Assembly (NCBI GenBank): GCA_026127935.1
Contig: JAJSLL010000017.1
Location: 1-38,197 of the forward strand
Source: Thermoplasmatales archaeon
GTDB lineage: Archaea; Thermoplasmatota; Thermoplasmata; Thermoplasmatales; GCA-001856825
Reading direction: 5' to 3'
DNA length: 38,197 nucleotides
Below, one piece after another: positions 14,811-38,197 of the stretch. Under the pieces are notes generated by a model. The model did not search any database. It saw only the letters and a program-made list of their open reading frames with translations, and had not been told where the DNA came from. Numbering within the stretch: position 1 is the stretch's first letter; each line of letters starts with the position of its first letter. The position numbers and the translations under genes were made by a program.

Positions 14811-16025
14811 CTATAAGGATTGCATCCACTTCCAAGCGGGCTTTACCAATATCTTCTTGCCTTGGATGTTAATCTCGTCTTCCTGATTGGAAGTTATTAT
14901 CAAGCCTTCGTCCAAGCCAAATTTACTCATAGCTTCTAACAGCCCATCAAGTTCGCGACGTTTGTTGTCTTCGTTCATTTCATAGGTCACCTGTATAGTC
15001 ATCCTTATGCTACCTCCCTCCTTTACAAGAAAGTCGCATTCTCCTCTCCCTTTAAAGTAATAAATATCCTTGTGAGATCTTCGCAGCCCCACGAAGACCG
15101 CATTTTCCAACATTCTACCCTTATCAGAGGTGAACGATACAGAGTTGGCAACTGATAATCCGTTGTCAATCGAATACACTTTCTTTTCATTGATCAATTG
15201 TTTCCTTAATGAATAATCGAATTTTGGTATTGTAAACAGCAAATAGCTGTCTTCCAGGTATGAAAGGAAGGAGATTGGCGTGTTAACGGAACCTAACCCA
15301 AACATTCTCTTAAGACTGTTAAATGAGAACTCTTTCCCTACGTTCGTCAACAGGTAGATTGCCATTTCTTGAAGTACCTTAATTTCTCGTATATTGTGTC
15401 TAGAGACTATGTCCCTATGCAAAATGTCGGAAAGCAGCTCTCTCAGGATTTCGGCCCTCTCATATTTTGCAAACTCTGGAAATCCCCCTTTGTTCAGGTA
15501 TTGTTCGAATGATTTGGGAGAGGCTTTCTCCTTCCTCAATAGCAATATCTCCCTAAAGGAGAAAGGGAATAATTCAACATTCAAGTGCCTGCCTGTCAAC
15601 CTCGTTCCAAGTTCCCTGCTTAAGAGCGAAGCATTGGAACCAGTTATGATGAATTGCTTGCGTTTGTCCAATCTAGACCTTACAAATATCTCCCAGTGTT
15701 TGACGTTCTGTATTTCATCTAGAAGATAGAACTGAGAATCACCATACTCTTCACGGAAGATCACATCAAGCTTTTCAAAATCGCTTGATTCAAAATCAAT
15801 AAGTCTAGTATCCTCAAAATTGAGATAGTAGAAATTAGAGAGCTTCTTGAGCAGCTGATGTAACAACGTGCTCTTACCCGATCTTCTTACGCCAGATATT
15901 ATGATTGCATACGGTAGATCCAATCGTATTTTACCTAGTTCTTCTCGCTCTATGCCATATTCAAAGGACCTCAGCTCAGCCCTTTGTTCTATCACAATTT
16001 GCCTCAGGGTTTCTTTTAGTATCAC
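14811..16025 (-). CDS. AAA_14/DUF4143 family ATPase
   Basis: A roughly 404-residue archaeal-type ATPase. Walker A is GVRRSGKS (about residues 45-52), Walker B is FYLLDEIQN (Asp103/Glu104), followed by FIITGSNASLLSRELGTRL (sensor). The C-terminal DUF4143 domain ends in a nuclease-like GRGECDFLV (about 326-334), resembling a PD-(D/E)xK core. Function is not settled for the family; members are mobile, often multicopy and found among toxin-antitoxin and defence genes. GTG at 16025 is preferred over TTG at 16034 because a TATA-like TTATACAT lies about 25 bases before it. Confidence 0.85.
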   Translation of the reverse strand: MILKETLRQIVIEQRAELRSFEYGIEREELGKIRLDLPYAIIISGVRRSGKSTLLHQLLKKLSNFYYLNFEDTRLIDFESSDFEKLDVIFREEYGDSQFYLLDEIQNVKHWEIFVRSRLDKRKQFIITGSNASLLSRELGTRLTGRHLNVELFPFSFREILLLRKEKASPKSFEQYLNKGGFPEFAKYERAEILRELLSDILHRDIVSRHNIREIKVLQEMAIYLLTNVGKEFSFNSLKRMFGLGSVNTPISFLSYLEDSYLLFTIPKFDYSLRKQLINEKKVYSIDNGLSVANSVSFTSDKGRMLENAVFVGLRRSHKDIYYFKGRGECDFLVKEGGSIRMTIQVTYEMNEDNKRRELDGLLEAMSKFGLDEGLIITSNQEDEINIQGKKILVKPAWKWMQSL

Positions 16026-23194: not shown

Positions 23195-23675
23195 ATTCCT
23201 CTCTCCAGTGAGGCTCCATCGTCCTTTCGAAGGCGGTTCAGGTATTACCTACGGAGGGGCCATTCCGCTATTTGCTGGGGTTGATTTGAGAGCAATATAT
23301 TATCTTTTCTTGCCTAAAACAACCTTCTTTAAGGCGTTAGCAAACTTCTTCTCCCCCTTTCGTCGAAAATTTCATTGAATAGGTCTTCTCCCTAGTTGGT
23401 ACCTTTGGGTCTTCCTTGAATGACTTTAAACGTTTATTCTCTGTTGCTCAGCCTCTCTGCCTGTTTTCTATATAAAAGCAGGGACACTACTAAGAAATAC
23501 ATACAGGTGGACCAGAAGGGCGTGCTGGAGGCCATGTTGGAGAAGAAGTCGGCTTTTTTCTGGCGGAGGCGAACCTGCTATGAATCCCACGCCCCGAACG
23601 GGAGGTTAATATCCATCCCCAGCCGGATTTGATTGATGAGGTGAATTTGGTGGATTTGAGCGAGGTGCTTTAGTG
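23195..23675. other. Intergenic boundary region: hyf-like operon promoter, repeat core E and element edge
   Basis: These 481 bases separate the chromosomal operon (leftward) from the integrated element (rightward). On the minus strand a TATA-like GATAATATATTG (about 23297-23308) lies about 100 bases before the hyfC-like ATG. A hyphenated palindrome AGGTA-T-TACCT near 23240-23250 lies between them and could be an operator. On the plus strand CTATATAAAAGC (23468-23479) is a good TATA box with no start codon until 23676, leaving a leader of about 175 bases that contains repeat core E. A 70-codon frame (23420-23632) is not convincing as a gene. Confidence 0.45.
23589..23618 (+). repeat. Hairpin core of the dispersed repeat, copy E
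   Basis: ACGCCCCGAACGGG is identical to the core of copy C (14728-14741), again on the plus strand. The preceding bases do not align convincingly with copies A-D, so only the core is claimed. Its position at the left edge of the integrated element is notable. Confidence 0.4.
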
Positions 23676-24023
23676 ATGGGCGGCTTAGATATTCTCACCG
23701 TTCCTGACTACCAGAAGCGCCTGGACATCCTCTCGGTGATAACTCCGTTCAGGCCGGGGATGTTTATTTCTGCCAACCAGGAGGAGATCCTGAGACTATG
23801 TGAAGGACAGCTGGAGATTGCGGAGGATGAGCTGAGAAGGTGGGCGGAAAGGCACTCTGAAGACGGGACCTCTGAAGTGAAATGCAGGACCGTTGGGGCA
23901 AATCCTCTCACGGTCAAGATCCTGGAAGTGAAGGATCCGGAGCAGGAGATCATCGAGAGCAATTTCAGGGATAGGAAGCAGAGACAGAGGAGATGGCAGC
24001 GGGAAAGGAGGTTATTGGAATGA
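23676..24023 (+). CDS. Unknown small soluble protein, first gene of the integrated element
   Basis: A 115-residue protein starting at ATG 23676 (a GTG lies just ahead at 23673). The N-terminal half is mildly hydrophobic (LDILTVPDYQKRLDILSVIT). The C-terminus is strongly charged with a run of Arg/Gln/Lys (FRDRKQRQRRWQRERRLLE), suggesting a helical nucleic-acid or protein contact. No family is recognised. It is plus strand like all genes to its right and, unlike genes on its left, uses many GC-ending codons and AGG arginines, so it belongs to the element. It ends just before the palindromic repeat array. Confidence 0.65.
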   Translation: MGGLDILTVPDYQKRLDILSVITPFRPGMFISANQEEILRLCEGQLEIAEDELRRWAERHSEDGTSEVKCRTVGANPLTVKILEVKDPEQEIIESNFRDRKQRQRRWQRERRLLE

Positions 24024-26243: not shown

Positions 26244-28820
26244 ATGTCTAACAAAAAGAATTTGGTAAAGTTTTTGACGCTGGCAGTCCTGTTTGTAATG
26301 GTTGCCACGATCGGTATGGGAACGATGGCTTCAGCGCAGCCATCGAACACTGAGCTGAGCCTTCCATTCATCAGCAACCCAGCGAATATGGCGCTAAACG
26401 TGACCCTCAGCCAGATATCGTACATAACGCAGCCAACGCAGTGGCTCTATTCAGGCAACGACCACCAGAAGGCCTATTATACAAACTCAACGGCCTGGGT
26501 CGTCCCAAATTCCGGAGACCTCTTCATCGCAAACAACTCAACCACGTCAACAGCCCCAACTGATTCAGCGATAAATTTCCCTGTGGCTAATTCGCTGGGA
26601 TCTCCCATCAATTACATATTCGGCGATTCAAGGCTTTCATTCAATGGAACAGGGGAAACGGCTTACTACATGATCTCCGAAGGGAATCAAACAGCTCCAC
26701 CAAGCGTGAGCGGCAATGTGCTGAAAGCATCTGCCGGTACAACCCAGAACGTCATCGATGTGATCATATCAGAGCACAATGCAACCACTTCTACAGTCAG
26801 CGTAGGCTACTTCGCCGATTCTGACAGCGGGGCTTACCAGAACTACACCACGTACTCGTTCTCCAGCCTCTACATCAACGCCCTGCAGTGGTACGACTTC
26901 ATGATCTACGTCCAGGGCTCTGGAACGGTCGTTTCAGTGATGAACGCAACTGGATCTATTCTTGCATCCTCTTCGACCCTGACTCCCGTCCTGGACGGAA
27001 ATTATTCCAAGATCACGACGGTCAGCTACATATCAGCTGAAGCCGCAACCACGAAAGGAGACATGCTCATCCTCGATTATTCGTACTTGGTGGACCGCAA
27101 CACGTACCAGACCTCAGCTCCGTCTGCTCCATTGGCTGGAGCGATAGGGGAGACAATAGGACCTGCCGCGCCATTTGACCCTGGAGCATCAGTAGCCGGA
27201 AATTATACTCAGGCCTCAAACTCCTCGAATGACTATCTCTCGACGAACATCAGTTTGGCATCCTTCAGCAGCGTGACAAACTCTTCAACGGTTGCATCGG
27301 AAAACAGCGGACTCATCAATGTGTCCCTGGAGACTCAGACGAATGACACTATAGCCTTGTCTCCCTCAACTCTAACCGACGTGAGGACGGCATCATACCT
27401 CCCCGCCACAGTCACAACGAACCTGTACGTCACGACGTGGACGTCTGCAGGAATAAACGCATCCATCATGAATTTCCTGCAGAGCATGATCGGATCCATA
27501 ATAAGCGTGGATCCAGCCGAAGTCAATGTGGTAGGGTATGCAGTCACGTCGATGGGGTTGGACATAACTCTCTCAAACACTACTATGACAGAGGTCAGCA
27601 ACTATCTTGACAATGCAATACCGGGAATACTAAATTCCAATGGCCTCGCCCTAGAGGACTCACAAACCGGAGCGATACAGGCGGGAGCGATGGCGGGATA
27701 CTTCATGACACCCAGCGGACCCGAAGCACCGATAGTCAATGGCCACCTGATAGAAAACCCCTTCACGGGAGCAGTCTATGCATCGATCGCACAGGCGGGA
27801 TTCTCCACGGGATCATACGTCTTCGAGGGAGCGATAGTTGTGCCCCAGTGGGAGTTCCTTGGATTCGCAGCGGATGGCCAGCCCATATTCGGTAACGTAC
27901 CTCTTGCGTGGAATCCATTTGCTGCCCTCAACGGAGCAGCATCTTCAGTCAGAAACTTCTTCCACAGTGCAGCTACAACTGTTAGCAATTCCTTGAATAC
28001 CGTGAAGGCCACAATATCACCTGCAGCATCGAAGATAGTCAATGTGGCTGGTGGCAGACTAGGAACCGCAATCCGGAACGCGGCAACGGACATACAGAAA
28101 TCAGCTAGCAGCGTGATGCCCACATTCGCAGGAGCGATCGGATCGGTCGGTAAATCCATAAGCGGCACCATAAGTCATGCAGTTACAGGAGTCCAATCCG
28201 GACTGGCTGACGTCAAGTCATCTGTCACAGGCGCAGTCCTGGCAGGGGTCAGCACCGTGAAACAGGGAATATCAAACATAGGGACGAGCGTCAAATCGGG
28301 CATCTCCGGGATCTCATCGAACATGGGCGGAGGATTCAAAAGATTCGGGAATGCGATCTACACGACCCTCGGCACGGTAGGCACCACAGTGAATAACGTG
28401 ATCTCCCCAATAGTGAACACGGTCAGGAACCTGCCGACCGCCATCGCGAACGGAACGCAGTCACTTGTGAAGGGTGCATCCAGCCTTGGACAGAGCATAG
28501 CCTCAGATGCGTCAAACCTAGGAATAGCAATCAAGAACGGCACAATGAACGCACTCGACACAATCGGGAACACGATAACGGGAGCAGGGAAGGAAATACA
28601 GAACGCATTCGGCAATATTTCGACCGAAATGATGGGCGCACTGAAAAGTCCGTTCTCGTTCATGATGGGTCTCAGCAACAACGTGGCTCACATAATCGAG
28701 TACGCTGGAATAGGAGTGGTGGTGCTCGTCCTAGTAATCGTCGGAGTCTACGTTTTCAGCCACAACGAGAAACACAGAAAGAGCAGAAAGCAGGTAAAGA
28801 GCGCGCAAAGGAAGAAGTGA
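26244..28820 (+). CDS. Large secreted, membrane-anchored surface protein (858 aa)
   Basis: An 858-residue protein with a clear signal peptide (MSNKKNLVKFLTLAVLFVMV to about ASA-32), one C-terminal membrane span (VVVLVLVIVGVYVFS, near residue 830) and a basic cytoplasmic tail (HRKSRKQVKSAQRKK). The first 540 residues are Ser/Thr/Asn-rich, beta-like, with many N-x-S/T sequons. Residues about 565-800 are a long Ala/Gly/Ser/Val-rich amphipathic stretch with repeating short units (VKSGISGISS, VTGAVLAGVS), like phasin or tape-measure proteins. The topology is that of a viral envelope spike or cell-surface adhesin. There is no known homologue by eye. It opens the element's second operon. Confidence 0.78.
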   Translation: MSNKKNLVKFLTLAVLFVMVATIGMGTMASAQPSNTELSLPFISNPANMALNVTLSQISYITQPTQWLYSGNDHQKAYYTNSTAWVVPNSGDLFIANNSTTSTAPTDSAINFPVANSLGSPINYIFGDSRLSFNGTGETAYYMISEGNQTAPPSVSGNVLKASAGTTQNVIDVIISEHNATTSTVSVGYFADSDSGAYQNYTTYSFSSLYINALQWYDFMIYVQGSGTVVSVMNATGSILASSSTLTPVLDGNYSKITTVSYISAEAATTKGDMLILDYSYLVDRNTYQTSAPSAPLAGAIGETIGPAAPFDPGASVAGNYTQASNSSNDYLSTNISLASFSSVTNSSTVASENSGLINVSLETQTNDTIALSPSTLTDVRTASYLPATVTTNLYVTTWTSAGINASIMNFLQSMIGSIISVDPAEVNVVGYAVTSMGLDITLSNTTMTEVSNYLDNAIPGILNSNGLALEDSQTGAIQAGAMAGYFMTPSGPEAPIVNGHLIENPFTGAVYASIAQAGFSTGSYVFEGAIVVPQWEFLGFAADGQPIFGNVPLAWNPFAALNGAASSVRNFFHSAATTVSNSLNTVKATISPAASKIVNVAGGRLGTAIRNAATDIQKSASSVMPTFAGAIGSVGKSISGTISHAVTGVQSGLADVKSSVTGAVLAGVSTVKQGISNIGTSVKSGISGISSNMGGGFKRFGNAIYTTLGTVGTTVNNVISPIVNTVRNLPTAIANGTQSLVKGASSLGQSIASDASNLGIAIKNGTMNALDTIGNTITGAGKEIQNAFGNISTEMMGALKSPFSFMMGLSNNVAHIIEYAGIGVVVLVLVIVGVYVFSHNEKHRKSRKQVKSAQRKK

Positions 28821-28824
28821 TCCT

Positions 28825-29049
28825 ATGACAAAAGTGACAGTAAGGGACTACGCAAAAACGGACGGAACCCACGTGAAGAGGCACACCAGGAATGACCCCC
28901 GGGCGGGGGGGTCTTCCGAGGAGCTCAACCCCGAGGACAAATACGAAGTGGAGGCAACGGTCACTGGAGAAATGGACAGCAAGGGAAAACTGGAGGATAC
29001 CAAGGTGACAGAGGTTAAACTCAAACCCAAAGAGAAGACGGGTGATTGA
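28825..29049 (+). CDS. Small charged unknown protein
   Basis: A 74-residue hydrophilic protein 4 bases after the surface-protein gene. The opening VTVRDYAKTDGTHVKRHTRN followed by DPRAGG resembles the short 'VxxHxRxxP' motif seen in small DNA- or peptide-binding proteins of mobile elements. The second half alternates acidic and basic residues. It is probably soluble and inside the cell or particle. Function is unknown. Confidence 0.6.
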   Translation: MTKVTVRDYAKTDGTHVKRHTRNDPRAGGSSEELNPEDKYEVEATVTGEMDSKGKLEDTKVTEVKLKPKEKTGD

Positions 29050-29070: not shown

Positions 29071-29256
29071 ATGAACATCGGCGCAATGATCCTTGTCCTG
29101 GTTGTTCTTCTTGCAATAGAGGGCGTGATAGATGTCTTTGGTCTCCCATTCGATGAGATCCTCGTCCCGGGGGAAATGATCGGCGACGTGCTGCTGATGA
29201 TCCTTATGGCTCTTTTTTCCGGTATATCTGGTCCGGGACCAAGGAGGCTCCAATGA
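29071..29256 (+). CDS. Small membrane protein, 61 aa
   Basis: Two hydrophobic segments (MILVLVVLLAIEGVIDVFGL and IGDVLLMILMALFSGI) surround an acidic loop. A GGGGGA SD-like run precedes the ATG. It overlaps the next small membrane-protein gene by four bases (ATGA). Candidates are a minor envelope protein or a holin-like protein; the sequence does not decide. Confidence 0.6.
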   Translation: MNIGAMILVLVVLLAIEGVIDVFGLPFDEILVPGEMIGDVLLMILMALFSGISGPGPRRLQ

Positions 29257-29450
29257 ACAGGATCGCACTCGGGATACTGATACTCATAGCCCTGGAGCTT
29301 GCATCAGACGTATTCATTGTCCTTTATCTCGGAGGATGGAGCCTGCTTGTCCTGCCTTTCGTGATATCCATCCAGGTGGTCTTTGATTTCATCCTCCTGG
29401 CGATGATCGGATTTGCTTCTTACTCCAGGAAGACGAGAGTGATCCAGTGA
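29253..29450 (+). CDS. Small membrane protein, 65 aa
   Basis: It has two hydrophobic spans (ALGILILIALELASDVFIVL and LLVLPFVISIQVVFDFILLA) and a basic C-terminus (SRKTRVIQ). It resembles the preceding gene in layout (IALELASDVF versus LAIEGVIDVF), so the pair may be an old duplication. It is coupled to both neighbours. Confidence 0.6.
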   Translation: MNRIALGILILIALELASDVFIVLYLGGWSLLVLPFVISIQVVFDFILLAMIGFASYSRKTRVIQ

Positions 29451-30319
29451 TGTGGCCCTTCAACGATGAGGAGAAATCACCAAGGCTCGGAGTGCTAAGT
29501 CCCCTGGACGTGGAGATCCACGATTCCGTTGGGGGCTGGACCCACTTCGGAAGGCCGGAGATGTTCAGGAAGGACGTCTCGAAGGAGAAGGGAAGCATCT
29601 TTTTTTACCGCATCCTCACCAAGTACAGGGAAGACGAGAAGGTCATAGTGACCACTCAGGACTTCATCCACATCGCGGACCAGATTCCCTACACTCAGAC
29701 AAGAAAAGGGAAGGGGAGGCTTTTCCAGATATTCCTGCTCACCTTCCTCGGGATCTACGGCCTCACCCTCTGGATGATGGGGGTGATGATCCAGGCAGGG
29801 CCGAGCATCATATTCTACCAGACGCAGGTGACAGGGCTGGAGATGGACGTGGCGGATGTAGCAATCGCCTTTGCGGCCATAGCAGGGTCATGGGCCTGGG
29901 CCGCACGGTACCATCATTACGTATCGGACTGGGAGATACAGCCCCTCAGGATCAACTCCCTCAAGAGCAGCACCGACTTCTACATCCTCACAAACTCATC
30001 GAAGGCTCCAGTATGGGAGGAGATGCTGAGGCTGAAGGACGTAGCAACTGCTGACATAGACAAGCTCGTAGATGCCGTGAGGCTGTTCGAAAAGAGGGAG
30101 ATTGACAGACTGCAGGAGAGCAACACAGACCTAGCGGGCGAACTTCAGGACGTCCACAACGGGGCATTCACCTATGGCGCTCTGGCTTTGGACGCGGGAA
30201 CTGTGACCAAGATCGAGAAGAGCAGGAGCATGCCAGACAGGACGAGGACGTTCTTCATCGTTGGAGTTGCAATTGCGGCTACCTTCGTTGCATCCTTCCT
30301 CATCTTCGTGGTGGGATGA
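29450..30319 (+). CDS. Unknown membrane protein, 289 aa
   Basis: The ATG at 29450 shares a base with the previous TGA. The N-terminal 95 residues are soluble (TTQDFIHIADQIPYTQTRKG). Two spans follow near residues 98-155 (FQIFLLTFLGIYGLTLWMMG, VAIAFAAIAGSWAWAA). A cytoplasmic helical region with LVDAVRLFEKREIDRLQESN comes next, and a last span (FFIVGVAIAATFVASFLIFV) closes the protein. The layout suggests a membrane platform that could recruit the ATPase three genes downstream. No family is recognised. Confidence 0.62.
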   Translation: MWPFNDEEKSPRLGVLSPLDVEIHDSVGGWTHFGRPEMFRKDVSKEKGSIFFYRILTKYREDEKVIVTTQDFIHIADQIPYTQTRKGKGRLFQIFLLTFLGIYGLTLWMMGVMIQAGPSIIFYQTQVTGLEMDVADVAIAFAAIAGSWAWAARYHHYVSDWEIQPLRINSLKSSTDFYILTNSSKAPVWEEMLRLKDVATADIDKLVDAVRLFEKREIDRLQESNTDLAGELQDVHNGAFTYGALALDAGTVTKIEKSRSMPDRTRTFFIVGVAIAATFVASFLIFVVG

Positions 30320-30612
30320 TGGACTATTCTTTTCTCCTTTTATTCTTGGCAATAGTTTTGGCGGTTGCAGTGATTTATCTGACTATTTTGATGCTCAAGA
30401 GATGGTACGTCACATTCTCACCAAAGGAGACCGCTTTTTTTGGATTGATTATGTTCAGCATAGGCTGGGTGCTGGAAGCCTATCTCGTAGGCAATGCTGC
30501 TGGAGTTCTTGAAGGGTCGGTCATAGACTTCCTGTTCTTTGGCCTATTCATCTATCGCTGGAATAAGCGCAGGATAGTGCGCAAAACCAAGAAGGAGGCA
30601 GGCATTCTATGA
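30316..30612 (+). CDS. Small membrane protein, 98 aa
   Basis: Three hydrophobic segments (FLLLFLAIVLAVAVIYLTIL, TAFFGLIMFSIGWVLEAYLV, DFLFFGLFIYRW) are followed by a strongly basic tail (NKRRIVRKTKKEAGIL). It overlaps both neighbours by four bases. It is probably a minor membrane component of the particle or a conjugation-like channel. Function is unknown. Confidence 0.6.
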   Translation: MMDYSFLLLFLAIVLAVAVIYLTILMLKRWYVTFSPKETAFFGLIMFSIGWVLEAYLVGNAAGVLEGSVIDFLFFGLFIYRWNKRRIVRKTKKEAGIL

Positions 30613-31145
30613 CTGGCGGGCCTGAGGACAATAGGCTCAACACCACCAGGGTGGATGAGCTTAAAATAGAGTGGTGGAAGAAGAATACAATGGCCATCTC
30701 ACGTGACGTCCTTGACCTCAGCGGATACCTTACCAGCTATTCCGAAAAGGAGGTCGTTGTGATCAAAGATGGCAAATTCGAAACCGCCAAGGTGGGAGAG
30801 ACCAAGGACGTCGAGCTCAGGTTTGCAATCCCTGCCGAGAAGAAGGATTACAACGAACTCCGTGTCTACCTGAATTTCTACGAATGGAAGAAACTCACAC
30901 TGAATTCGTATGACGTCAGGATCCTGGAGCTACAAAAGAGCGGGAAGATCGAAAAGGTCAAGCGCCAGATGATGGAAAAGGAGCTCTGTAAGCACCCGCT
31001 TCCAGGGTGGGACCGCTGGTTCAACGGTCTTCTCGACACTCTCGCGCTGAAGGCGACGGAGATGGCATATTCCGAAATGAGGCAAATGCCAGACCGCAGG
31101 TGGTTTCGCATTTATGACCAGGAGCGTGAATTGAACAATGAGTGA
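30609..31145 (+). CDS. Unknown soluble protein, 178 aa
   Basis: A soluble alpha/beta protein. The middle has strands (EKEVVVIKDGKFETAKVGET, KDVELRFAIPAEKKDYNELR) and the C-terminus is helical with many aromatic and basic residues (GWDRWFNGLLDTLALKATEM, MPDRRWFRIYDQE). It is coupled by overlap to the genes on both sides. No family or catalytic motif is seen. Confidence 0.6.
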   Translation: MTGGPEDNRLNTTRVDELKIEWWKKNTMAISRDVLDLSGYLTSYSEKEVVVIKDGKFETAKVGETKDVELRFAIPAEKKDYNELRVYLNFYEWKKLTLNSYDVRILELQKSGKIEKVKRQMMEKELCKHPLPGWDRWFNGLLDTLALKATEMAYSEMRQMPDRRWFRIYDQERELNNE

Positions 31146-31551
31146 CGATGGAGCGAATGGAACGGTAAAGGGGATAGGCCATGGAGCAACGCTTCACACG
31201 GCGTTAGAATGGGTCCTGAGGGAAACGGCAAATGGGACCAGGCTTGAAGAGAACGACTACCCGAACGTCTGGAATTATACAATGCTCGCTGAGGCATACG
31301 CAGAATACATGCAGAACCCGCTGGCGCCCGAGCAGGCACTTCAGAAGTTCATGGATAAGACGAACGACATGGACAAGAAATACGGGGGAAAGAAATTTCA
31401 CAGGATGTCGAGGGAAGAGGCATGGGAGCGTTCTTACGCTGCGCTTCTCTATTTCACTTATCTTGGAGCTCACCAGCTGCAGAAGGAAGAACAGCAGTGG
31501 AGCGACGATGAGTTGGTCAGGACGGAAAGGGAGGAGTCAAATGCTAGATGA
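31138..31551 (+). CDS. Unknown soluble helical protein, 137 aa
   Basis: A mostly helical, charged protein (NVWNYTMLAEAYAEYMQNPL, REEAWERSYAALLYFTYLGA). Its ATG overlaps the previous stop by eight bases, and its end overlaps the ATPase gene by 11 bases. This tight coupling to the ATPase suggests a direct partner, for example a regulatory or adaptor subunit, but there is no sequence match to support it. Confidence 0.6.
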   Translation: MSDDGANGTVKGIGHGATLHTALEWVLRETANGTRLEENDYPNVWNYTMLAEAYAEYMQNPLAPEQALQKFMDKTNDMDKKYGGKKFHRMSREEAWERSYAALLYFTYLGAHQLQKEEQQWSDDELVRTEREESNAR

Positions 31552-32638
31552 TGAGATGGCGGACGCGACAAACGCACTCTCCAAGGACATCGAAGAGGAC
31601 TGGGAGGTTTCCCCAGCAGCTGCTATCAAGATGACAACCGATTATTTGGAGATCCTGGGATCCGTGAAAAATGAAAAGGCCTTCGTCTCAGGATTCAACA
31701 CCGGAAGAAACGAGAAGAGAGAACGGGAAGAGGCAGTCAAGTTCTGGCTCGATACTGTGTTTTTCAGAAGGGACCTCCCAGTGGTGATCAGGGCGAGGAA
31801 CGGAAGGGGGAAGACATACCTTCTCACCTGGCTTCTGTTGAGGACCAAGATAATGAGACCTGATGGGGATTTCCTAACGAACATCCCCTGGTTCTGGGAA
31901 ACAGATCCCAAGGTGAAGCCTCTCGCAATGCCCAACTTCTACAACATAAACAAGATGAGCGATATGCTCAGGAGATCTTCTGAGACAGTCCTGGAAGGAA
32001 GGACCCCGTATGTAATAATTGATGAGATGGACAATGCTGTGAGCTCGCAGGATTTCACCGGAGGAAGGGGAGGACCCTTTGCCAGCTGGAAACAGTTCAC
32101 GTACATCAAGAGGCACCTGAAGATGAAGGGACCACTCCTGGCATATCACAGCGTAAATGACATCCCCAATTATATGCGAAGCAGACAGGTCGTTGCTGAC
32201 ATCCTCAAGGTGTACGTTCACGGAGGGGAGCGATACGTTTTTTCGAAAGCCACAAGACCATATCGTTTGAAAGTTGGTGGCGATTTCGTTATCTATTCAA
32301 AGAATGGATTCAATGATTTCGAGATTGACGTGGACATGAGGAAGCTGAGAGTCAGCATAGGAAAGACCGGCACGCCTGCCGAGTCTGCAAGGAAGATATT
32401 GGCCAACCTGGATTCTTGCACATATGACGCTTACGAGAAGAGAAAGGAAGAATTCGACAAGGGAGAAATGTACAAAGACATTTGCGAGATGAAAGCTGAG
32501 GGACAGACGTACAGGGAAATCCAGGAGAAGATGAAGATCTCCGCAGCCACGGTGAAGAAGGCGCTCGAGTGGTGTGAGAAGCAGCAGAGCATGAAGGGAA
32601 GCAAGGAAAACGATGAGGGGGACGATGAAATTGAGTGA
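31541..32638 (+). CDS. P-loop ATPase (FtsK/HerA/Zot-like) with C-terminal helix-turn-helix
   Basis: A 365-residue ATPase starting at ATG 31541, with SD GGGAGG nine bases before; the open frame extends further upstream but overlaps other genes. Walker A is the variant ARNGRGKT (residues 85-92), with Ala in place of the first Gly. Walker B is YVIIDEMD (Asp161/Glu162). Then FTYIKRHLKMKGPLLAYHS followed by NDIPNYMRSR matches the late-strand/arginine region of FtsK-HerA-type DNA-pumping ATPases. The last 60 residues hold a helix-turn-helix (AEGQTYREIQEKMKISAATV). The best guess is a genome-packaging or DNA-translocation ATPase of a virus-like element. Confidence 0.7.
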   Translation: MLDDEMADATNALSKDIEEDWEVSPAAAIKMTTDYLEILGSVKNEKAFVSGFNTGRNEKREREEAVKFWLDTVFFRRDLPVVIRARNGRGKTYLLTWLLLRTKIMRPDGDFLTNIPWFWETDPKVKPLAMPNFYNINKMSDMLRRSSETVLEGRTPYVIIDEMDNAVSSQDFTGGRGGPFASWKQFTYIKRHLKMKGPLLAYHSVNDIPNYMRSRQVVADILKVYVHGGERYVFSKATRPYRLKVGGDFVIYSKNGFNDFEIDVDMRKLRVSIGKTGTPAESARKILANLDSCTYDAYEKRKEEFDKGEMYKDICEMKAEGQTYREIQEKMKISAATVKKALEWCEKQQSMKGSKENDEGDDEIE

Positions 32639-32706: not shown

Positions 32707-33666
32707 GTGTCGGCTGACTGGATGGCCTACGTTCTCCCTTCTCTTTTCTCTTTTTCTTTTGTCCTGGTCTACGTGAGGATATTCAGGTTGATCAAGAAGG
32801 CTCCTCGAACGATAGAGATGTTGACCGGGTCCATTCCAATATCGATTACCGCAGTGATCTTAGAATCATACTTGTTCAATTATCTTGGAACGCTCCTTGG
32901 CCTCCTCGTTGCTGCTCCGGTCCTAGAAGAAGCTCTGAAATTTGCAGGAACGGCACGAAAGAGAGACGTCAGTTCTGGACTTGGAGTGGGACTTGGGTTT
33001 GCGTTCACTGAGAACTTGCTTTATTTCCACGCTTTCCTTTCCGGATATTCCATCTCTTCCATCGTGTCAGTTTCTTTCATTTCTTCACAGGTCTTCCTCT
33101 TCGTAGCCATGAGGGGGTCTTTTGACCCGTTGCTGCATGCGACCCTGACCGGCCTTTCAGTCAGGACCTGGCAGAAAGACAAGCGCTTTTGGCTGCCTAT
33201 AGCCATAGGATTTCACGTTGCGTACAACTTCGTCGCTGTTTTAGGCATGACCAATATTCCGTTTCTGGTCGCTGCAGATGTAGCGGTTCTTGGACCCGCA
33301 TTGTTCCTGCTCCTGAGAAAGGCCAGGACAAGCATTCAGACGGTATCGCCGAAAATTACGACGGAATCAAAACAAAGGACCGATAAGGTGAAGCCCCAAG
33401 TCCAGGTCGACGTAAGGAAGCTCGGAATTGATAATCTTGCAGCATGGGTGAGAGCCAGCTCAAGGGCAATCGGATTTCAGGGAATCACCAAGGCGATAGG
33501 ACTCGAGCTTTCTGATCGTTATGAAAGAACGATGTGGATTAGGAGATCCTTGACTGTATCAAATGGAAGAAAGATCACATACACGGAAATCGGACCTTAT
33601 GGAGCTCTCCTTGTTACAGCTCTTGCAGCCCTGGGGGGGATTGCCGTATGGGTGCTGTTCCTGTGA
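32707..33666 (+). CDS. PrsW-like intramembrane protease
   Basis: A 319-residue protein whose first 205 residues form a bundle of about seven spans carrying the PrsW/CAAX-protease-like catalytic set. These are Glu74-Glu75 with Lys78 (APVLEEALKFAG), Glu102-Asn103 (GFAFTENLLYF), His144 (LLHATLTGLS) and His170 with Asn174 (GFHVAYNF). A soluble domain (about 210-300) and a last span follow. These proteases cut membrane-bound substrates. The gene starts with GTG 32707 behind a strong SD. Its position 29 bases before a giant membrane-anchored surface protein suggests that protein, or host anti-sigma/surface proteins, as substrate. Confidence 0.8.
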   Translation: MSADWMAYVLPSLFSFSFVLVYVRIFRLIKKAPRTIEMLTGSIPISITAVILESYLFNYLGTLLGLLVAAPVLEEALKFAGTARKRDVSSGLGVGLGFAFTENLLYFHAFLSGYSISSIVSVSFISSQVFLFVAMRGSFDPLLHATLTGLSVRTWQKDKRFWLPIAIGFHVAYNFVAVLGMTNIPFLVAADVAVLGPALFLLLRKARTSIQTVSPKITTESKQRTDKVKPQVQVDVRKLGIDNLAAWVRASSRAIGFQGITKAIGLELSDRYERTMWIRRSLTVSNGRKITYTEIGPYGALLVTALAALGGIAVWVLFL

Positions 33667-33695
33667 CCTCGCTTCGTGCAAGAAAAGGAAGAAGA

Positions 33696-36600
33696 ATGAA
33701 AAAACTCCGGTTAATCTTGATCCTGTTGATTCTAATTCTTACTATTTTTTCATCTTTCAACTTTGCACTTCAACCAGCCGTTGCAAGTCCCCCAGCAACG
33801 GGAGACATAGCATGGGCAAATGCCACGGCGAGTTATACCGGAGTGTCAAAATGGCAACAGCAACCTACTACAAACCTAAAGATATGGGCTAACAACAATT
33901 CTACGGCTTCCCCTCTAAGCCTTCCCTTCCCGAGTGGTTCGTATATGACACCTTGGATGTCGAGTCAGAGGTTATCGGCTACTTATCCGTTAAATAATTA
34001 TACATACAACGGGACGGTCGATGCAAGAGTCAACGGTCAATTTGAATCTGATATGCCTACTAATGGCGGCAATGCCTATGACAGCCTTGGCACTATCTGG
34101 GCTAATATAACGGCGAGCGGTTCGCTATATAGCTGGTCGTATAGATTCAATTTCAAGGGTACAGATCTCTACGATAGGCCTCTATTTGCGCCGGAATGGA
34201 ATGTAACGGCGGGTTCCTTGGTTACGAAACTCAATATAACCTTGACACCTTACGACAGCACGGGTTTTAGCGGCAACTCAATGAACAACCCATGGACAAT
34301 ATGGCATCAGAATATAGGCGTAAACGAGATATTGGATAGTAGAGATTTCAATTCCAGTACTGTAGTACCTTTAAAAGATTTTGTCTATGGTTGGAATTAT
34401 GCGTATAAGTCCATATCCTCGTCCTTCTCTCTCCCTTCAAATATCGCATCTTATACCCTAAATTGGACATCATCTCAAAGAACTAATGCAACCTACAACT
34501 CTCTAACTCAGTCAGGGGCTATAGGCGGACATTTCACCGGCTCTTTATCTATGACCTCCGTCACATTCCAAGCCGATTTTATGGACTTCAATCAGCAGTA
34601 TTATTCCATTTCCTATTTTCTCAATGAAAACACAACCTCAGCTATGGATGACGTTTACGGAGCAGAGGGGTATATTTACGGTATCTCGGAAAATGGGAAC
34701 TTCTTTAATTCTACTCCTATCTATTTCAATTATACCGTTCCGAGCGGAGCCTCTAATTCTTATTCTGTTTCATACAAGGTCACTATTAGCAACGTGACGT
34801 TGACAAATCCCAACGCTCCGGTCGAGGATTTCGGCCTAATCAATACCGATTTTACCGAGTATTCCGTCTCAAAATCAGGTAGTACCATTAACATAGTTGG
34901 CTATGTCAACTATTCAAGTGCGCAATCTACGAGCGTTAAATTTCAGACCTCAGAGTTAGCCAACTATTACCCTACTATTGTCAGTTCCTCCATAGGTTGG
35001 ACGGACACGGGCAGCGAGGCCGCCTTGACGGTCAATGCCGAGGACGTAGGCGGAGGCTATACATTCAGTTCCGAGACCATTCAGGTTATCAATATCAACT
35101 GGGGAGACGGCAGCCCATTGGGCTCCTCGGCCGTTGAGACCGGAGCCTATGACTGGACGTTCTATCATTACTACTCGAGTCCGGGGAGCTATACAGTGAG
35201 CTTTCAGGTCGTCAACAGGCCTGGTCTGGCAGGGTCGCTGTCTAGCCAGGCTTCCGGAAGCTACGTAATCACGACCACTATAACTACAGGGCCGACTGAC
35301 AACTCATATTTGGCCTCGGGTCAAAAAATCTATTTCAACTATTCCGGAGCCGCCGCAGGCCTCACATCCTTGACGCTTCAGATTAACGGGATTGCGCAAT
35401 TCACAGACTCGTTCCAGTCGCTGCTGACGAGCGGCACTTCTTATACCCCGACATACAAGGGACAGCTCAATGTCACCTGGGAGTGGGCAGCGGGGAATAT
35501 CACGGGAACAGTCTCACTGACCTACCAGACGACAATCTACATCTCCCCGCAGGCGCTGTATGTCCTTGTCAACTATACTTATGGCGGAGTCCGCTACTCC
35601 AATTTCGTTCCCTGGTCAGGGTCGCCGATAGGGTACAACCTGACATACTCATACTACACATGGAGTTACAATCTCCCGGGGGAGAGCACGGGCGTCACAA
35701 TAGAGGGGAGCACGTCTTGGACCTTCGTTCTTGCTAGCCCGGGAGATGTCACTTTCTACCCTGCCAACGCAACTGCAGACTTCCACATCTCCCAGACGGA
35801 CTTCGTCAGCATAACGTTCCTGGCGAAGGACCCTCCCCAGCCGGCATCTTTCCAGATCACCTACTATCCGACGAGCGCGATCTACAACTTCTTCGGGGCT
35901 GCCCTCAGCTTCAGCGACCTGCACACCTACGTGGACGGCCAGCTCCTCCATACCGACTTCATCAATGCGCAGGTCGGCAGCACGTACTCGATAAAGGCTT
36001 ATGACCTAGTCGGAGACCTGGTTGTGAACACAACCTATTACGTCCAGTACCAGACGAGTTTCGATGACATACCCGTTGCAATCTGGCCCATCACGATATC
36101 CAACCAGAACTCCACCTATGAGCTGGGCCTTGACGTGAGCACTCATGGATTCTCCCAGCCCTTTCCTTACATCGGGCCCTCAGGGACGGCCACGTCCGGC
36201 TATACAATATGGATACTGAGCGGCAGCTACTACTTCAACTTCACCTACGTGAACACGCAGACATATGCGGTCTACCAGACGGTGCCTCTGCTCAGGACAG
36301 TCACAGGTCCATCGTTCATCAACATACAGGGGGTGACACTCTCGCAGCTCCAGGTCACGCAGCAACGCAACGCTCAGAACTATACCAACCTCGTGGAGCA
36401 GGTGAATATCACGTTTGCCAATGAGTATTCAAAAATCTACAATGAGACCTTGGGAGTAAATGTCAACGTTAATAACGTCAATGTCTCCGTCAATCACGTA
36501 CTCGTAGAGATGCTTACCAACGTCTCTTTTATCAAGAGCTACGTCTTGAACTTGAATAACACCATGAGTTCAGATTTCACGGTCACAAACGATATTATCA

Positions 36601-37877
36601 AGTCGTTCCAATCGAATCTTACGGTATTGACTACCTACGTGAATAATACCGTCAGTTATATCAAAACTCTTGAGACTTCTATCAACCAGAACCTTACGAT
36701 TCAATACGGGATAGTGAACGAGACGCTGTTCATTTCCAAGCAGAATTTTACAGCGCTGGGCTCTTCCATTAAGAGCAACTTTGACACGCTAGTGGCGTCT
36801 CAGGATTTCCAGGACTCCCTTGTAAACCTCACAATCTCTGATGTCAGGACCGGGTTCACCTACAGCAACGACCTGATCAATAATACGGCTACAAATCTCA
36901 TAGCTCAGGACAATCTAATCAATGATACAATCAACTCGATAAAGTCTCTTGATATTCAGTTCAATTCTAATCTTAGCCTCGTGAATGCCTCCATCAGCGA
37001 GTTGTCCATACTATCAAAGCAACGGTCGGTTTATCTCAACTCTACAATCGCCAACGATTATGACTCGATGCTTAACAACGTTACCCTTGTCTATTCCTAC
37101 GTCAAAGGTATGAATGTTACCCAACTCGACTATCTTGCAGCCCTTTCAAGCGCAGTCCATAGCATACAAAACAACGTCACAGTAACGAACAGTTACATCA
37201 ACGATACGGTCACCCGGGTGGATACATATATGACAACAATTGAGAACAGCATCCTGGACAACATCACTTACAGCACACTCAACGTCACCACCAGGATCAA
37301 TACCGTGAAGAACCTGGTATCGCTCAGCCTCCAGGACCAGAACGCGACCCTGAGCTACAAGCTGCTGTTCGGCACTCCCCAGATCCTCAACGGTTCCACC
37401 TACAGGTTCCCCGTGTTCGTGGAATCCCTGAACGGCGAGCTCGCAAACCTGTCAGTGACAAGACAGGCTGCCGCCAATCTTACCCTCTACTATATCTCGG
37501 GCAACAGCACCCATTACCTCAATTTCACGACAGGGAGCGTAAAGGCCGGGAGCTTCGAACTGTACATCACCAACCTGAACAGTTCCGATGCAAACTACAT
37601 TAGGGGGAACGAGGCAATAGTCCAGGGGAAGAGCGACATAGGCGCGGGATCCGTAGGCAACCTGGCAGTCGGCATTGCAGGGAGTTCGCAGCTCAATGGG
37701 GCAACAGCCTATCCGGGCTACAATTTCAATTCGATCCAGGGAATAGTGGCCTTTCTGGGAAACCTTGAGCAGACCACCAGCGGAAGAGCTCTCTATCTGA
37801 TAACAGGTCTGGTGGCTCTCGTGTACTACATTACTGTCCTAACCAGGAAGAACGAGAAGAAGGCGAAGAAGAAATGA
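33696..37877 (+). CDS. Giant spike-like surface protein (1,393 aa) with PKD domain and heptad stalk
   Basis: A 1,393-residue protein. The start is ATG 33696, where the signal peptide MKKLRLILILLILILTIF begins; codons before it are leader. The mature part has Tyr/Ser/Thr/Asn-rich beta structure with dense N-x-S/T sequons (about 35-440). A PKD-type domain (INWGDGS...HYYSSPGSYTVSF, near 465-505) follows, then further beta domains to about 895. A 300-residue heptad-rich stalk comes next (e.g. LSKQRSVYLNSTIANDYDSM, about 900-1210), then a compact C-terminal domain. One membrane span (ALYLITGLVALVYYITVL) and a basic tail (KNEKKAKKK) end the protein. It is an adhesin or viral spike. Base composition changes several times along the gene. 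Confidence 0.8.
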   Translation: MKKLRLILILLILILTIFSSFNFALQPAVASPPATGDIAWANATASYTGVSKWQQQPTTNLKIWANNNSTASPLSLPFPSGSYMTPWMSSQRLSATYPLNNYTYNGTVDARVNGQFESDMPTNGGNAYDSLGTIWANITASGSLYSWSYRFNFKGTDLYDRPLFAPEWNVTAGSLVTKLNITLTPYDSTGFSGNSMNNPWTIWHQNIGVNEILDSRDFNSSTVVPLKDFVYGWNYAYKSISSSFSLPSNIASYTLNWTSSQRTNATYNSLTQSGAIGGHFTGSLSMTSVTFQADFMDFNQQYYSISYFLNENTTSAMDDVYGAEGYIYGISENGNFFNSTPIYFNYTVPSGASNSYSVSYKVTISNVTLTNPNAPVEDFGLINTDFTEYSVSKSGSTINIVGYVNYSSAQSTSVKFQTSELANYYPTIVSSSIGWTDTGSEAALTVNAEDVGGGYTFSSETIQVININWGDGSPLGSSAVETGAYDWTFYHYYSSPGSYTVSFQVVNRPGLAGSLSSQASGSYVITTTITTGPTDNSYLASGQKIYFNYSGAAAGLTSLTLQINGIAQFTDSFQSLLTSGTSYTPTYKGQLNVTWEWAAGNITGTVSLTYQTTIYISPQALYVLVNYTYGGVRYSNFVPWSGSPIGYNLTYSYYTWSYNLPGESTGVTIEGSTSWTFVLASPGDVTFYPANATADFHISQTDFVSITFLAKDPPQPASFQITYYPTSAIYNFFGAALSFSDLHTYVDGQLLHTDFINAQVGSTYSIKAYDLVGDLVVNTTYYVQYQTSFDDIPVAIWPITISNQNSTYELGLDVSTHGFSQPFPYIGPSGTATSGYTIWILSGSYYFNFTYVNTQTYAVYQTVPLLRTVTGPSFINIQGVTLSQLQVTQQRNAQNYTNLVEQVNITFANEYSKIYNETLGVNVNVNNVNVSVNHVLVEMLTNVSFIKSYVLNLNNTMSSDFTVTNDIIKSFQSNLTVLTTYVNNTVSYIKTLETSINQNLTIQYGIVNETLFISKQNFTALGSSIKSNFDTLVASQDFQDSLVNLTISDVRTGFTYSNDLINNTATNLIAQDNLINDTINSIKSLDIQFNSNLSLVNASISELSILSKQRSVYLNSTIANDYDSMLNNVTLVYSYVKGMNVTQLDYLAALSSAVHSIQNNVTVTNSYINDTVTRVDTYMTTIENSILDNITYSTLNVTTRINTVKNLVSLSLQDQNATLSYKLLFGTPQILNGSTYRFPVFVESLNGELANLSVTRQAAANLTLYYISGNSTHYLNFTTGSVKAGSFELYITNLNSSDANYIRGNEAIVQGKSDIGAGSVGNLAVGIAGSSQLNGATAYPGYNFNSIQGIVAFLGNLEQTTSGRALYLITGLVALVYYITVLTRKNEKKAKKK

Positions 37878-37996
37878 ACAGGAATGAAAGGGAAAGAATG
37901 AGAAAGAAGATAGAGGATGCAAAAAGGGACAGGATCTTAGCGATTATGCGGTTCACCTATGGTAGCAAACACATCTCAGCTTCCACCCCTGCCTGA
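37874..37996 (+). CDS. Very small basic protein, 40 aa
   Basis: ATG 37874 overlaps the spike stop codon (ATGA). The frame reads MNRNERERMRKKIEDAKRDR, then ILAIMRFTYGSKHISASTPA, to TGA 37994-37996. The first half is a highly charged helix and the end is unlike a fold. Translational coupling and AGG/AGA-rich codons support it, but its tail may already be non-coding. Confidence 0.45.
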   Translation: MNRNERERMRKKIEDAKRDRILAIMRFTYGSKHISASTPA

Positions 37997-38197
37997 TTTT
38001 AATTTTAAATGAAGCGTGAATTTAAAGAGTGGCTAAATTGAGGGATCCTGATCAGCTCCAAACATGGTGTACTTTTATCCTTAAAAGTTCATCGAACCAC
38101 CCGCTTTACTTAAAAACGAAGGGCTGAAATTGATTCAGAGATAGTCAAAATGATGAACTTTTAAATAAAAGTTTAAATTGAACATGCATGGAAGAGC
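37997..38197. other. AT-rich non-coding right end with a 13-bp inverted repeat
   Basis: No gene is seen in the last 200 bases. TTAAAAGTTCATC (38081-38093) is exactly inverted as GATGAACTTTTAA (38152-38164). Each arm also sits in a smaller palindrome (ACTTTT-ATCCTT-AAAAGT and AACTTTT-AAAT-AAAAGTT). This may be a control region or the terminus of the element. Confidence 0.45.

Follow-up and report, generated by a model that had tools for sequence, protein, structure and literature searches.

The window, as we call the whole 38,197-nt stretch of DNA analysed here, is a complete contig of a 1.58-Mb source genome. Host genes (the nuo operon, PIN, SDR and saccharopine dehydrogenase) fill it up to about 23.2 kb. 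From about 23.4 kb on, GC content changes from ~0.41 to ~0.50 and a co-directional block, made up mainly of membrane or orphan genes, extends as far as the contig does. This block, hereafter the element, holds the following features:

23673..24023 (+): small ORF (116 aa) near the element's left end, with a homologue in the element of genome G090 (E 5e-7)
26244..28820 (+): P858, with a signal peptide, a long helical C-terminal part and a C-terminal membrane anchor
28825..29049 (+): p74, small conserved ORF with homologues in G005 and G167
29071..29256 (+): p61, small membrane protein with two predicted transmembrane (TM) segments; belongs to family 2, which 8 elements share
29447..30319 (+): p290, membrane protein with a C-terminal TM; homologues as separate ORFs in six further elements
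30316..30612 (+): p98, 3-TM membrane protein with homologues in five further elements
30609..31145 (+): p178, conserved soluble protein with homologues in four further elements
31138..31551 (+): p137, a short soluble protein standing where other elements have their family-9 proteins
31541..32638 (+): P-loop ATPase, a member of the VP8 NTPase family of pleolipoviruses; its C-terminal part is helix-turn-helix-like
32707..33666 (+): PrsW-family membrane protease (319 aa; PF13367 and motifs)
33663..37877 (+): giant anchored surface protein (spike), starting at GTG 33663 or ATG 33696
37991..38029 (+): 39-bp block between genes, conserved, a candidate for the element's right end or for an attachment site

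Protease, spike and envelope module

The first-pass annotation had placed a PrsW-like gene directly upstream of a giant anchored protein. We confirmed both ORFs with their positions, and PF13367 matches the protease above its curated cut-off of 23.5 bits (27.6 for the window PrsW and 28.8 for its G005 homologue). The window protein carries E74-E75-x-x-K78, E102-N103, H144 in DPLLH and H170-x-x-x-N174, plus E53, and the motif residues, E53 included, are invariant in a six-sequence alignment. The catalytic set, described earlier as intact, is indeed complete, except that the motif given as 'ExN' actually reads TEN (E102-N103). A regular expression of the four motifs is by itself too unspecific to call a PrsW. 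About eight membrane-spanning helices are a criterion of the family; element copies have 6-8 hydrophobic segments by hydropathy, and the window copy has 7 core segments plus a C-terminal extension. No CPBP/ABI protease match was found in the window PrsW, where searches at E<=1 returned only PF13367 and one sub-threshold unrelated model. The AlphaFold prediction of PrsW (two sequences, pLDDT 39.7) is too low in confidence for topology or fold search. The C-terminal extension (residues ~215-319, 33349-33666) is ~100 residues long, ends in an extra TM, lies immediately 5' of the spike gene and has no counterpart in the 7 other element copies.

The protease gene starts with GTG behind a strong GGAGG Shine-Dalgarno sequence, 68 bases downstream of the ATPase gene and on the same strand, so that ATPase, PrsW and spike may form one operon. 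Its junction with the spike depends on where the latter starts. The 29 bases and 1,393 residues reported earlier hold with ATG 33696 (with an AAGGAAG Shine-Dalgarno-like stretch), while GTG 33663 gives a 4-base overlap and 1,404 residues; the start is ambiguous because the TSxRxRKGRR peptide encoded between the two codons is conserved in G005. The spike consists of a signal peptide, a beta-rich head with a PKD-like stretch (by eye), a coiled stalk and a conserved C-terminal anchor domain (residues ~1175-1404), and bears 54 N-glycosylation sequons. Modelling of the head reached a pLDDT of 32.2, too low for a fold search.

P858 is the most widespread protein of the element, with homologues in nine further element loci, and is probably the main envelope protein. 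It shows tape-measure-like helical repeats and is hydrophobic at both ends. Its matches to tape-measure proteins, baculovirus PEP and ZorA reflect helical-repeat similarity and were not accepted as homology, and a phylum-wide scan for P858 outside the class found nothing convincing. Among the smaller genes, p290 has one more homologue within a merged frame in G334, and p137, for which the window ORF gave no significant match, is assigned by position only.

The 39-bp block has an 87% identical counterpart after the ATPase in G005 (L003:13962-14000), and in both elements follows the last structural gene. No second copy was found in the window at up to 3 mismatches. Lone 3' ends of spike genes occur on chromosomes in G096 (L017:11792-12424 (-), last ~90 codons) and G008 (L018:7958-8170 (-), ~46 codons), one of the two fused in frame to an unrelated ORF; we read them as traces of earlier integrations or excisions. 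The homology of the G096 remnant (L017:11652-12006) to the window ends within the 39-bp block.

Gene order in related elements

Relatives were sought with PrsW in the host family (15 genomes) and with P858 and PrsW class-wide in Thermoplasmata. The sole PrsW matches in the host family are two element copies, that of the window and that of the same-genus genome G005, which lies within a homologous element. The class-wide P858 search gave copies in G090, G125, G167, G276, G334, G362, G388 and G408; the PrsW search added G326, G255, a gapped copy in G300, a contig-edge or decayed copy in G328 and a remnant in G146. What looks like an ATPase-PrsW fusion in G300 (ORF L114:599-2056) is artefactual, as its frame crosses a stretch of N. 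Four loci (G090, G167, G334 and G408) stop short of the PrsW place and were left out of the PrsW count, and eight entered it (the window, G005, G125, G276, G362, G388, G326 and G255). Each of these eight, in which the place is covered and the gene complete, has PrsW, and the four motifs EExxK, EN, H and HxxxN are intact in every one at sequence identities of 28-73%. Scans of IMG/VR for the ATPase, PrsW, spike and P858, and tblastn against INPHARED, found no relatives.

Genes are usually arranged as P858 - p61 - large anchored protein - p290 - anchor-domain protein - p98 - p178 - p137 - ATPase - PrsW - family 14, which makes the ATPase the constant neighbour of PrsW. It lies directly in front of PrsW in 7/8 loci, counting the decayed G255 locus, in which it is a fragment. 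The window (ATPase-PrsW-spike) is the sole locus where PrsW touches the spike, and G005 has the order spike-p100-p97-PrsW-139-154-ATPase, its 100-aa protein being the p98 homologue. Co-occurrence of the two genes in other elements had been set as a check, and it holds for PrsW and the anchor domain of the spike. PrsW and the anchor domain were found together in all six elements first compared and also in a seventh, G326. Direct adjacency is not kept elsewhere: PrsW follows the ATPase, except in G005, where two genes separate it from the spike upstream. The window junction is therefore local, and a shared promoter is no conserved feature of the group.

Linkage to the ATPase, together with strong sequence divergence, could also be read as a sign that PrsW works without proteolysis and serves the ATPase or surface-protein export as a scaffold or conduit in the membrane, and a conduit function of PrsW has been proposed for toxin export (PMC3482391). 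Retention of all catalytic motifs in 8/8 copies, at identities down to 28%, makes this very improbable.

The giant head is not conserved either. G005 has a full-length spike homologue (1,186 aa, 43% identity), but four other elements carry instead, in the equivalent role, a separate and unrelated anchored protein of 616-985 aa with a signal peptide, a C-terminal TM and a Kelch-like (by eye) or glycosidase-like character. The Kelch beta-propeller look was noted by eye in L059:10407-13364 (-) and L057:12277-14127 (-), one of them glycosidase-like in its second half, and the G388 protein has a glycosidase-like half (by eye). Such proteins suggest glycan binding or cutting at entry. The N-terminal domain of the window spike recurs in large surface proteins of G003 (37%) and G114 (41%, over a shorter stretch). 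In G003 (L016:8638-14080 (-)) large surface-protein ORFs overlap, one of them with this head domain, in a locus that is not of this element type. Unrelated heads in other elements, and the head domain in other proteins, indicate that the head is a swappable module and the C-terminal anchor domain the constant one. The anchor domain is present in every element covering its place, often as a separate protein of 235-387 aa, with a small free-standing version in G276. Its TM segment starts with a GRAxY motif that all 8 sequences share unchanged, one of them from a lone remnant on a chromosome, and no comparable motif was found in the TM segments of P858, the Kelch-like protein or p290. To judge from sequence, the signal peptide, single C-terminal TM and basic tail would put GRAxY at the outer face of the membrane.

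In several elements the core is flanked by resolvase-type recombinases and Eco57I/N6-type DNA methyltransferases (L003:14573-18801; L055:3-2030 and 15247-15948; L058:15223-17451).

Kinship to pleolipoviruses and origin of the protease

The ATPase ties the element to the pleolipoviruses. Five of six element ATPases match phrog_1979 (best E 1.5e-5), the family that HRPV-1 VP8 matches at 8.8e-97, and profile-profile comparison of ATPase and VP8 gave 95.7%. Profile comparison found no homology of P858, the anchor domain, p290 or p98 to VP3, VP4, ORF6 or ORF7 of pleolipoviruses. Against the profile of VP4, the fusogen with a V-shaped fold, P858, the spike anchor and the Kelch-like protein reached at most 0.7%, and p290 6.6% over 14 columns only. 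A VP3-like internal membrane protein gave no profile match, the small TM proteins standing merely in a comparable place. We therefore speak of a pleolipovirus-like element without assigning it to the family, since sequence comparison revealed neither VP3 nor VP4 and the model of the spike head is too poor for a fold comparison. Production of virions, which are pleomorphic and enveloped in the pleolipoviruses, is accordingly an inference for the element.

The ATPase also bears on whether PrsW regulates the element by freeing a membrane-tethered regulator or the ATPase complex, which would switch virion production on or off. Regulated proteolysis is the known role of PrsW, the neighbouring window ATPase has a helix-turn-helix-like C-terminus, and a small soluble protein (family 14) lies behind PrsW in other elements. 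Against this, the helix-turn-helix similarity is weak (E 0.006) and the other ATPases do not show it, and no regulator-TM-ectodomain layout was seen among the element proteins, so that we regard regulation as improbable.

PrsW is missing, too, from four ATPase-bearing relatives without P858 and anchor domain (L107, L108, L109 and L111, of which L107 and L111 are short or cut by a contig end); possibly they form a sister group of plasmids or viruses. The VP8-like ATPase loci L108:4663-10797 and L109:6117-10161 adjoin tyrosine-recombinase-like ORFs (by eye). PrsW profiles likewise found no PrsW in 11 pleolipovirus and thalassapleovirus genomes. Since neither these genomes nor the ATPase-only relatives have it, PrsW is, on sequence grounds, a core gene specific to one lineage, a pleolipovirus-like group not yet described.

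A chromosomal PrsW could have come to lie beside a surface-protein gene by chance in a metagenome-assembled genome, given that about half of the sampled Thermoplasmata genomes carry a PrsW. By a rough estimate, a PrsW gene placed at random among ~1,700 genes has a chance of ~1% of landing within an element of ~15, which excludes coincidence across eight loci, even though the loci are related. In a tree, the 8 element PrsW are split from 31 chromosomal PrsW of the same class by a branch with 100/100 support. Because the window and G005 branches are long, we claim only a separate clade and no rooted origin. This clade and the presence of PrsW in all covered relatives refute coincidence, and the host family holds no other copy; the chance that it explains the locus is negligible.

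Proposed role of the protease and comparison with known systems

The presence of PrsW in every covered relative, nearly always beside the ATPase, suggests that an undescribed virus group regularly cuts a membrane protein in the course of its life. In our proposal, PrsW would reside in the host membrane while virions assemble, and there cleave a membrane-anchored protein of the virus itself, at or close to the membrane. As its substrate we favour the conserved C-terminal anchor domain, which forms the spike's end in the window and is a small protein of its own in other elements. Cleavage at or near GRAxY would let the anchored surface protein mature, or would release or free it for budding. Besides its constant presence, the intact motifs, the separate clade and the linkage to a VP8-type ATPase and an envelope module speak for such a role. 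Bacillus subtilis PrsW cleaves RsiW, a single-span membrane protein (PMC5358783). The anchor domain accompanies PrsW in every element covering both places, and its candidacy as substrate is supported by the ATPase loci from which P858, anchor domain and PrsW are all missing. We give a probability of roughly 0.45 to this explanation as a whole. It takes everything beyond about 23.4 kb on the contig as all or most of the integrated genome of a Thermoplasmata virus of pleolipovirus-like kind, and PrsW as a core gene of this lineage whose product cuts one of the virus's own anchored proteins in assembly, with the anchor domain as favoured substrate.

Some observations weigh against it. The conserved partner of PrsW is the ATPase, with spike adjacency only in the window, GRAxY may instead serve oligomerisation or lipid contact, and a target among host membrane proteins would yield an identical pattern of conservation. 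Such a target, a host membrane or S-layer-associated protein, could be cut for superinfection exclusion, for receptor removal or for blunting an envelope-stress or defence response. PrsW is best known for cutting a stress-signalling anti-sigma factor (PMC5358783), it lies away from the spike in most relatives, and the haloarchaeal pleolipoviruses do without it, as expected of an accessory host-directed gene. Yet accessory genes for host takeover usually vary, and PrsW is in every covered element, fixed behind an assembly-type ATPase, and is lacking from ATPase-bearing elements that have no envelope module. A host target is accordingly rather unlikely in our judgement.

With cleavage of a viral surface protein as the preferred reading, we can tentatively conceive of an enveloped archaeal virus lineage with a membrane-embedded metalloprotease in its assembly module, maturing or shedding its own surface glycoprotein at GRAxY. 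If true, this would parallel in archaea the spike processing known from enveloped viruses of eukaryotes, except that the enzyme would be intramembrane and encoded by the virus. As a core gene of a whole element lineage, the protease makes archaeal envelope-protein processing directly testable by two-gene reconstitution.

The pairing of such a protease with a viral-type spike had been put forward as one not known to be described. This stands for archaeal viruses, as literature searched for both terms together gave no description of a PrsW-type protease in any of them; for viruses at large there is precedent, since PrsW-like domains have been reported in aquatic RNA viruses (PMC7508674). Those are likewise virus-encoded PrsW, but in RNA viruses and not in a DNA element with an envelope module, and we liken them at family level. 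With the known members of MEROPS M82 (Bacillus subtilis PrsW, Haloferax volcanii HVO_0408) the element PrsW shares the Pfam family, the four motifs and a multi-span membrane protein; it differs as a distinct clade on a mobile element, whose window copy has an extra C-terminal domain and TM. We know of no anti-sigma factor in archaea. In secreted polymorphic toxins, PrsW is reported as a releasing peptidase, fused there to the toxin N-terminus (PMC3482391). The processing or release proposed for a secreted protein is alike, while the element PrsW is a separate ORF from the spike, in which no toxin domain was found. With Pleolipoviridae and 'Thalassapleoviridae' (HRPV-1, His2, AvPV1) the element has in common a VP8-type NTPase, integration in archaeal genomes and, as in the pleolipovirus assembly block (PMC10919331), compact co-directional genes for small TM proteins and an anchored surface protein preceding the NTPase. 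We found no described virus of this kind in Thermoplasmata of acidic habitats, into which the element group carries the pleolipovirus NTPase module. It departs from both families in its Thermoplasmata hosts, its far larger surface proteins (600-1,404 aa) and the PrsW behind its NTPase.
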